Below are positions 31,547 through 53,418 of a stretch of DNA of 64,000 nt, piece after piece. The DNA is taken from positions 124,001-188,000 of the forward strand of contig NZ_SOSC01000003.1 of the NCBI RefSeq assembly GCF_005049285.1, in the 5' to 3' direction. A program made the position numbers and the translations under genes. The stretch is from Halorientalis salina (GTDB lineage Archaea > Halobacteriota > Halobacteria > Halobacteriales > Haloarculaceae). Within the stretch, counting starts at the first letter, position 1; each line of letters opens with the position of its first letter. The notes beneath the pieces were generated by a model. That model made no database searches, was not told where the DNA came from, and was given only the letters and a program-made list of their open reading frames with translations.

Positions 31547-31593
31547 ACCGTCAGGAGTCGGTCAGCCCGTATAGGGCTTCCGTACGACATCCT

Positions 31594-31613
31594 CCGCGCC
31601 CTAAAGAGCGCGG
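31594..31613. terminator. IS200/IS605-type right-end hairpin
   Basis: Perfect 6-bp inverted repeat CCGCGC...GCGCGG with an 8-base loop (cctaaaga), 27 bp beyond the tnpB stop. This is where IS605-group elements have the subterminal palindrome recognised by TnpA and where the 3' end of the TnpB guide RNA lies. It could also terminate transcription. Confidence 0.6.
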
Positions 31614-32348
31614 TTTCCTCCGTGGGAGTCTCAGCCGGTCTACGAGTCCCCGAAGGCAACATTCCCGTTGTGGTGGACGGTACTCGGGTCTGTGCGCTGT
31701 TCTTTGGGACGGTGAGAGTGTGGTGACTCCGACCAGTCGTGGTCGTCCCACTCGAACCGCACTGGCCGTGCCATCGGCCTGACTGCCTGTTCTGTGTGCC
31801 GTTTGAGGAACGTTTCTGAGGCTGTGAGGTCGGCATTTCCCTCGAACCCACACGGACAGGTGAGTGTGTCCTGATGCCGGGTCGTTCGGTCTCTCGAACC
31901 ACATTGCGGGCACTCCTGGCTGGTCCATGCTTCCGACCGGACTTCCACCGAGATACCGTATTCCTCGGCGGTACAAACCAGGCGCTCGGTGAATTTCCTG
32001 AATGACCAGAAATTGTGGGTCTTGGCGTTGGTTTCGACCGACCAGTGCGTGTCCAACACGTCGATCAAGCCGCCAATATACACTGTATCCACGCCGTCCT
32101 CGTACAGTCTTTCCAGCAGGTCACGACACAGTGCCTCTTGGGCGTGGTCGCGGCGTCGGGTCCGTTTCCGATATAATCGCCGGATACGTTCGCTACTGTA
32201 TCGCCAGTCTTCGAGTTTCGACTGTAACCTGGCGATTTCTCGTGTCGTCTCACGGAAACGGTTGAACAGGTCCCGACCTTCGTACAGGTATTGCTCGCCG
32301 GTCGTGGTGGTACAGGCGACGAGAGTGTTCGCACCAATGTCCAGAGCG

Positions 32349-32402
32349 GTCATCAGACTGCGTCTGATGGGCAACCAGAAATCTCCGATTTCTGGTGACG
32401 GC
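32349..32402. repeat. Double-hairpin unit inserted in tnpB (site 3)
   Basis: Hairpin A: CATCAGAC-tgc-GTCTGATG (32351-32369). Hairpin B: CCAGAAATC-tcc-GATTTCTGG (32375-32395), linked by ggcaa. Removing about 55 bases rejoins the tnpB frame as [11 protein letters not shown]. Hairpin A is shared in core (CAGACTGCGTCTG) with the first unit of the array at 33276. Confidence 0.85.
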
Positions 32403-32690
32403 CGTCTCTGCGGCCAGTGGAGTGCCCCGTGCATTATCAGGAACAGTCACGGGTTGCGAAGCCCTGAACGTGCTATCAGTCTCGTCGTACCACAGGTCCA
32501 ACCGGCCCTGCTTCTCGTAGTTGGGCCAGTTCGGGTCGCCAGCGATTTCAAGCCGGAGACGCCCGGTGTGGTCGTATCTATCTTTCAACTCGCTCCCGAT
32601 CAGTATCTCAAGCCGGGAGCGCTCGCCCCATTCGACGGTGTATGCGTCGTTGCGAATGACGCCTTTGAGTTGGCGTCCATCGTCTTTGTT

Positions 32691-32743
32691 GTCGAGGCGA
32701 ATCTACGATTCGCCGACCATTGGAAATCGGAGATTTCCAAGAC
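32691..32743. repeat. Double-hairpin unit inserted in tnpB (site 2)
   Basis: Hairpin A: GGCGAATC-tac-GATTCGCC (32696-32714). Hairpin B: TTGGAAATC-gga-GATTTCCAA (32720-32740), linker gacca-like. The insert keeps frame but carries a TAG on the tnpB strand. Confidence 0.85.
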
Positions 32744-32958
32744 CACGGAAGCCCGGCGGTTCCGGATGTTCCGTGACTGACGTATTCGACTCATCGTGGT
32801 ACTGGTCCTTCAGGCGGAAGAACCCGCGCCACGCTTCACTGTTTTTGCGTATCACCTGTTGGGCAGTGGACGCACCAAGCACGCCCTTGTACTTGCCTTC
32901 GAGTCGGCCTGTATCGGTGTCCCACACGTCCTCACCCTCAAAGCCGTCCTCGTCGTTG

Positions 32959-33007
32959 TCAAGCAAATCGTAGATTTGCGTACATCGCGGAGCTTTGCTC
33001 CGCTCAG
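32959..33007. repeat. Double-hairpin unit inserted in tnpB (site 1)
   Basis: Hairpin A: GCAAATC-gta-GATTTGC (32963-32979). Hairpin B: GCGGAGC-ttt-GCTCCGC (32987-33003), linker gtacatc. The 49-bp insert introduces a TGA after RLMRY and shifts frame by one. Confidence 0.85.
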
Positions 33008-33269
33008 TACCGCATGAGGCGCTGGTACGTGACTTGGTTCCAGAGCGCGGCAGAAGCGTCCAACAGGTCCCGTAGCAGTTGCTCTCCGGTATTTGAGAGT
33101 GGTCGCACGGCGAACGTGTTGGTACGCTTCATGGCCCACTGTTACATCCAATCCGTCTTGTAATAAAGTACAGCTAACCACAGTGAAAGTAGAACTCGCG
33201 GCGAGTGGTAGAAACTCACGACCAGCAGTAACGGGGGGGTTTTCACTGGAGCGGACGCGATCCACACCC

Positions 33270-33541
33270 GTTCGCCAGACTGCGTCTGTCGGGCAGCCAG
33301 AATCCGGCGGATTCTGGGAACGTCCCCAGAACGCTCCGCGTTCTGGTGTGCGAACGAGACGCTTCGCGTCTCGTCAACGTCCCCAGAAATCTCCGATTAC
33401 TGGTGTCTCGGAAACCGGGGATTTCTGACGTCGAAGGGAATGTGTAGATTCCCTGCCCATTGAAAAACTTCACTTTTCAAGAAGTCCGCAGGAGCGGCAG
33501 CTCCTGAGAGATGCGAATGAGAGCTTCGCTCTCGTCAACGC
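33270..33541. repeat. Tandem array of five double-hairpin units
   Basis: Ten successive hairpins of 5-9 bp stem: 33276-33288, 33297-33317, 33326-33346, 33354-33374, 33383-33403, 33408-33428, 33435-33454, 33460-33480, 33489-33506, 33519-33533. Eight have 3-base loops. Units are separated by short gtc-containing junctions (33322, 33379, 33430, 33484, 33540), a period of 51-57 bp. Stem sequences differ between units but pairing is kept. Lies between the tnpB element and mptD. No coding sequence is evident in 33133-33692. Confidence 0.85.
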
Positions 33542-53310: not shown

Positions 53311-53418
53311 CCCACGTTTTTGCGCGAGGGTGACAAGCGAAGAGAGAGCTTCGCTCTCACAGGAAGCCGGCGCGACGCGCCGGCGACGAAGCGCGTCACC
53401 CGAGCGGAAAAAGGTGGG
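53311..53418. mobile_element. 108-bp terminal-inverted-repeat element with internal double hairpin
   Basis: The 24-bp ends cccacgtttttgcgcgaggg and its continuation tgac (53311-53334) match the reverse complement of 53395-53418 at about 20 of 24 positions. Inside is GAGAGC-ttc-GCTCTC (53344-53358) then GCCGGCGC-gac-GCGCCGGC (53366-53384), the same double-hairpin design as at 33.3 kb; the first hairpin is identical to the last one in that array. No gene inside: MITE-like. Confidence 0.72.

Follow-up and report, generated by a model that had tools for sequence, protein, structure and literature searches.

Double-hairpin units recur at fixed positions in haloarchaeal tnpB genes

Results

The tnpB gene and its inserts

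We analyzed a 64,000-nucleotide stretch (hereafter the window; positions 124,001 to 188,000 of contig NZ_SOSC01000003.1) of Halorientalis salina, a haloarchaeon with a genome of 3.66 Mb. It contains an IS605-type element that encodes TnpB only, with an array of double-hairpin units adjoining it:

31586..31613, minus strand: palindrome at the right end of the tnpB element (CCGCGC...GCGCGG) with its GATGTC tail (alignment)
31640..33132, minus strand: tnpB coding region of the IS605-type element, with three units inside (domain matches, alignment with intact relatives)
~32350..32401: insert A, 52 bp, hairpin stems 8 + 10, coding site 628 (alignment, hairpin scan)
32692..32742: insert B, 51 bp, hairpin stems 8 + 9, coding site 342 (alignment with relatives)
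32958..33006: insert C, 49 bp, hairpin stems 7 + 7, coding site 124 (absent from 8 relatives)
33133..33269, minus strand: conserved upstream end of the tnpB element (alignment with relatives)
33270..33541: array of double-hairpin units directly next to the tnpB element, on its upstream (left) side (hairpin scan, alignment)

The largest open piece of the gene matches the TnpB domains of IS605-type elements (PF01385: E = 8.1e-27; PF07282: E = 8.3e-14, both above the cut-off), and a further copy of the gene is found on a plasmid of Halorientalis marina. The original prediction was that three inserts interrupt this tnpB and that their removal yields a continuous frame. Alignment with eight intact relatives (L009 to L016) confirmed both points: three extra stretches of 49, 51, and 52 bp are present in the window copy only, and with the inserts omitted by script the frame runs from start to stop without a further frameshift or stop. 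The predicted borders were correct within 1–3 bases; the length of 49 bp was exact, and those of 53 and 55 bp are replaced by 51 and 52 bp.

Each insert is one two-hairpin unit, as had been proposed. Inserts A, B, and C belong to three different sequence kinds, each forms a pair of perfect hairpins with 3-base loops throughout, and folding them as single-stranded DNA gives z-scores from -4.4 to -5.0, with 0 of 200 shuffles as good. Insert A, whose border is uncertain by 3 bases, consists of a core TC...GA (32350–32398) with CGG on both flanks (32347–32349 and 32399–32401). Insert B has no target duplication, and insert C has GT on either side (2 bp). The third predicted insert and the first array unit do share the CAGACTGCGTCTG hairpin, with 74% identity over 57 bases. 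Within the array, AACG/TCC marks the junction between tandem units, and it is at about the array start (33270) that the window and its relatives diverge in sequence. Units with both stems of at least 7 and 3-base loops occur in the window only at 32351–33374 (five detections, two of them overlapping), and 0 were detected in each of eight dinucleotide shuffles of the window. A slightly weaker two-hairpin pair, with stems of 6 and 8, lies at 53344–53384 and is apparently intergenic.

The unit family

A unit comprises two perfect hairpins with 3-base loops and a short linker (mostly 4–8 bases), for a length of ~45–57 bp. Outer stems and linkers are conserved within the unit kinds and the cores are variable. 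Matches to the array are spread over many contigs of the genome. Over 116 genomes, the half-unit pattern CCAGAA..TTCTGG, which covers only some unit kinds and some of whose matches are not units, has 629 matches vs. 92 for the reversed control; two genomes of one genus (G067 and G044) have very high counts of 89 and 38. Some loci on contigs C5, C16, and C20 are hairpin chains that mix unit kinds. Three or four hairpins with mixed linkers also follow one another in L064 (5671–5847), L159 (3370–3457), and L061 (6705–6813), an arrangement that looks like end-to-end addition of units.

Filled and empty sites

We compared 61 tnpB rows, of which L009 and L093 represent the same locus. Twelve distinct copies hold 16 units in the coding region. 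These units lie at six points, and five of the six are occupied more than once, in copies of different genera:

Site 124: window copy, L105
Site 342: window copy, L069, L098
Site 628: window copy, L050, L100, L101, L114
Site 762: L085
Site 1174/1176: L009, L050, L102 (at 1174)
Site 1218: L009, L103

The L105 unit is decayed and was missed by the hairpin finder, and it is counted here by sequence likeness. Beyond what had been predicted, the insertion points in tnpB are fixed and repeatedly used. Nine other copies carry a unit within the loop of the right-end palindrome (coding position +1374). In contrast, targeting of hairpin loops was rejected for the coding region: in three reference copies, all six sites stay within background, the best case being site 628 in L010 (stem 5, with 0.146 of positions as good).

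Filled and empty sites are also visible in a second tnpB family of the same genome. Its 3′ site is filled in the C4 copy and empty in C2 and C16, another site is filled in C16 and empty in C4 and C2, and the left-end site is filled in C2 and C16 and empty in C4. Furthermore, a PAS-rich histidine kinase of 1118 aa (L064, G000:C20, 1023–4379) carries, in frame and within its ATPase domain, a double-hairpin unit of 45 bp; 6 of 11 relatives are exactly 45 bases shorter, within 4 bases of the unit point, and the remaining 5 show shorter or split gaps. This is consistent with the earlier claim that the units move or get copied, which the filled and empty sites bear out. Among units with a clear empty site for comparison, several start with TC and are flanked by CG/CGG repeats of 2–4 bp (site 628, C4, and C16), and sites 342 and 762 have no target repeats.

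Repeated use of sites

We placed the carriers on a coding-sequence tree of 48 rows, made up of the 46 rows of the codon analysis (see below) plus L100 and L104; carriers outside the tree are L101 and L114 (site 628), L105 (124), L103 (1218), and L085 (762). With three carriers per site, sites 342, 628, and 1174 need three changes each, and a single clade of carriers is rejected at all three (342: p-AU = 0.015; 628: p-AU = 0.0085; 1174: p-AU = 0.0004). Simple descent of a unit together with its tnpB is therefore rejected for these sites. The nine right-end carriers need seven changes on the same tree.

The two site-342 carriers L069 and L098, both from genome G055, hold an identical 51-bp insert, and their flanks (49/60 identical with 30 bases on each side; 101/120) are no more alike than the whole genes. 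Flank similarity is not raised at 342 and 1174, where 0.11–0.69 of pairs are as extreme. At site 628, the window copy and L050, both in one genome, match at 111/120 flanking positions, with 3.9% of all pairs as extreme, and gene conversion is plausible at this site because these flanks are unusually similar. Site-628 units have a mean identity of 0.93 among themselves vs. 0.69–0.86 to four other units of their kind. They thus form one lineage, and a simple genomic pool is not their source. Both targeted insertion by site-specific lineages and very short-tract conversion would fit the data.

Association with TnpB and Y1 transposase

A profile search with PF07282 returned 28 TnpB sites in the genome. 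Sixteen units lie within 2 kb of 8 of these sites, vs. 2 units in 20 random stretches (340 kb). Counted in 4-kb windows, a unit is present at 8/28 TnpB sites but at 2/80 random positions, evenly spaced and not matched for gene density (P = 3e-4), and the enrichment persists when the window's own element is excluded (7/27, P = 8e-4). A control transposase family, PF01609, has just 6 sites in the genome, too few for use. The proposed preference for IS605-type elements is hence supported in this genome, but it is not exclusive, as there are also units in the spaces between ordinary genes and within the histidine-kinase gene. Of 16 loci sampled in four other genomes, only 3 have TnpB homology nearby, so that the preference may differ between genomes.

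This genome has three Y1 genes, and Y1 matches occur in 63 of the 116 genomes. The pattern count is weakly correlated with the Y1 count (rho = 0.31, P = 8e-4), and 6 of the 15 genomes with at least 10 pattern matches have no Y1 match. At L067 (G000:C11:451000–466000) a Y1 TnpA gene lies beside TnpB, with end palindromes the same as those of the window's tnpB family; it is possibly the autonomous partner of that family. The 360 bases at the start of the C4 TnpA gene contain no hairpin of at least 5 pairs with a loop of 3–6. Neither a mobilizing enzyme nor an intermediate was found in this analysis, and none of the elements examined is a parent transposon sharing terminal repeats with the units.

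Covariation and loops

Among the site-628 units, 6 of 49 columns vary: four are among the six loop positions, and the other two form a compensating pair (Fisher P = 0.001). In a small, hand-picked alignment of ten end-region units (8 of the 9 right-end units, with L071 omitted, and 2 left-end units), 98.6% of pair cells are paired. Both partners have changed in seven pairs, a number reached in 2 of 500 shuffles, and in 20 individual cells, a number reached in none of the 500. GNA/TNC triloops make up 46 of 63 distinct unit hairpins, taken from fetched genome parts, vs. 27 of 211 loop-3 control hairpins from random stretches of the same genome (P = 2e-19). GNA loops give exceptionally stable DNA mini-hairpins (excerpts of PMC4686876). 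The covariation, the loop-limited change, and the GNA/TNC loops together point to selection or correction on hairpin form, probably of DNA. The site-342 insert of the window differs from that of L069 and L098 only by a turned loop (TCC for GGA); turned loops of this sort suggest that copying involves the opening and resolution of hairpins.

Effect on the gene

All three window inserts break tnpB: those of 49 and 52 bp (C and A) shift the frame, and that of 51 bp (B) is in frame, yet contains a TAG stop. Pairwise dN/dS of the window copy against 45 others is 0.10–0.21. This codon analysis comprised 46 rows, with L078, L085, L093, L096, L101, L105, L114, L116, and L117 omitted together with rows that are incomplete at either end or contain a stop. 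The window copy was therefore under selection during most of its history, and its inserts would then be recent or somehow tolerated. We looked for functional proteins with the same inserts. The site-342 insert recurs in L069 and L098, but there too it carries the in-frame TAG, and no functional protein with the same inserts emerged; other tnpB copies (L009 and L102) do hold other units in frame. Five tnpB copies (L081, L095, L097, L104, and L109) show paired +1/-1 shifts within ~12 bases at positions 264–278, which reflect noise in the alignment or else a change of frame that is compensated.

Discussion

We consider it somewhat probable (about 0.6) that the inserts are haloarchaeal non-coding, non-autonomous, double-hairpin mobile elements with a homing-like use of fixed tnpB sites. 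This reading is based on sites that are precisely filled or empty, on the enrichment of units near TnpB, on reuse of the same points, and on covarying stems. The units would insert precisely, repeating 0–4 bp of the target (often CG or CGG), and in this genome mostly in and around tnpB elements; every sequence kind would re-enter its own fixed point in the tnpB of different genera, like a homing element. The moving form may be hairpin-forming single-stranded or cruciform DNA, with an enzyme supplied in trans, and spread among tnpB copies may proceed via targeted insertion or very short-tract conversion. The window's tnpB would have been disabled recently by its insertions. Several observations weigh against this mobile-element reading: the target repeats follow no single pattern (absent at 342 and 762, CGG at 628), neither enzyme nor intermediate came to light, the flanks of the window copy and L050 fit gene conversion, a simple genomic pool did not supply the site-628 units, and few loci from the four other genomes (3 of 16) have TnpB homology nearby. 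A more far-reaching version is tentative: gene-less homing-like DNA of ~50 bp might be defined by two very stable GNA-triloop hairpins rather than by sequence, with each lineage re-entering one fixed tnpB position across genera, via a hairpin-acting enzyme or TnpB-provoked breaks, and silencing RNA-guided transposon nucleases.

The constancy of borders and orientation at a given site, the single lineage at site 628, and the unusually similar flanks of the window copy and L050 would also be expected if each tnpB site had been entered only once and the unit had later spread among multicopy tnpB without any ongoing transposition, through homologous recombination or gene conversion alone. We regard this as unlikely, given that the flanks are no more similar than usual at 342 and 1174 (0.11–0.69 of pairs as extreme), that carriers are scattered over the tree, and that units also occur in the second tnpB family and the kinase gene. 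Somewhat less likely still is that the units are terminal-only PATEs, i.e., fused left and right IS605-type palindromes moved by the Y1 (TnpA) transposase. Their ~52 bp, two near-terminal palindromes, and non-coding nature do recall the 52-bp terminal-only PATEs described for Haloquadratum in passages of PMC3119063, and pattern counts are weakly correlated with Y1 counts; yet the end palindromes of the window family (GTTCCGAC..GTCGGAAC and CCGCGCC..GGCGCGG, present also at the C11 Y1 gene) are unlike the unit hairpins, 6 of 15 copy-rich genomes have no Y1 match, and the start of the C4 TnpA gene (360 bases) has no hairpin of at least 5 pairs with a loop of 3–6.

That the hairpins are instead normal gene or RNA parts, whether a protein segment, part of a guide RNA, or a sequence skipped by splicing or ribosome bypassing, seems very improbable. 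Some units do lie in frame in open genes (L009, L102, the C4 TnpB, and the histidine kinase), and copies with frame-breaking units are otherwise intact, the window copy having a dN/dS of 0.10–0.21. However, units are absent from most copies, the window inserts shift the frame or carry a stop, and an intact remainder is equally explained by recent insertion.

Similar short mobile hairpin elements are the double-hairpin elements found in Allomyces and the translational bypassing elements, and Rickettsia palindromic elements insert in frame. The latter (named in PMC3733652) resemble the units as short palindromic inserts within genes, and their hosts differ. In the literature searched, mostly outside subscription journals, we found neither the exact hairpin strings of the units nor any description of them. 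SMR-A of Haloquadratum walsbyi, a repeat of ~110 bp that targets IS605-type elements and PATEs (PMC3119063, 2011), is likewise haloarchaeal, non-coding, and transposase-free, with an enigmatic mobilization, and it strongly prefers IS605-type elements and their end palindromes (PMC3119063). The units show the same preference for IS605-type elements (8/28 TnpB sites vs. 2/80 random windows). They differ from SMR-A, as portrayed in parts of PMC3119063, in being 45–57 bp and often inside an ORF rather than ~110 bp and mostly outside, and in having only TC...(A/G)A-like termini, with palindromes that are two separate hairpins, where SMR-A has prominent inverted terminal repeats. Both SMR-A and PATEs lack a target duplication; the units lack it at 342 and 762 but have 2–4 bp repeats elsewhere. 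Terminal-only PATEs (52 bp) share size, two palindromes, and no coding capacity with the units, and PATE palindromes resemble IS605-type ends (PMC3119063), whereas the unit hairpins differ from the ends of the window family, C4, and C11 elements.

The units also share short palindromes, doublets, variable stems, and intragenic copies with REPs and REPINs (sections of PMC3733652 and PMC3116915). In 16 of 37 units, a CGTC lies no more than 7 bases outside a hairpin foot (control fraction, 0.127), but CGTC REPs have loops of 4–5 bases and are mainly head-to-head dimers (PMC3733652), whereas a unit combines two dissimilar hairpins, both with loops of 3 bases. A REPIN carries a GTAG tag and an inverted pair of one REP, and no GTAG is present in the listed foot sequences of the units; REPINs are associated with RAYT genes (PMC3116915). 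The best functional likeness is to the yeast mitochondrial GC clusters (GC42), mobile hairpin elements of ~40–50 bp with loops changing faster than stems, merging and shuffling, and short direct border repeats (portions of PMC4478555). GC clusters belong to eukaryotic mitochondria, and nothing indicates that they and the units share an ancestor. SMR-A, PATEs, REPs/REPINs, and GC clusters are the nearest known elements, and the units differ from each of them in its defining features.

If our reading is true, the long-standing puzzle of how transposase-free palindromic repeats move becomes directly testable, with tnpB alleles that hold or lack a unit at defined nucleotides as a ready assay. It would also bear on the proposal of 2011 (PMC3119063) that IS605-type transposons are counteracted by small repeats. 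An element much too short for any coding sequence would then have spread through many haloarchaeal genera, repeatedly striking the same points of RNA-guided nuclease genes, and would be a prokaryotic counterpart of the mitochondrial double-hairpin elements.
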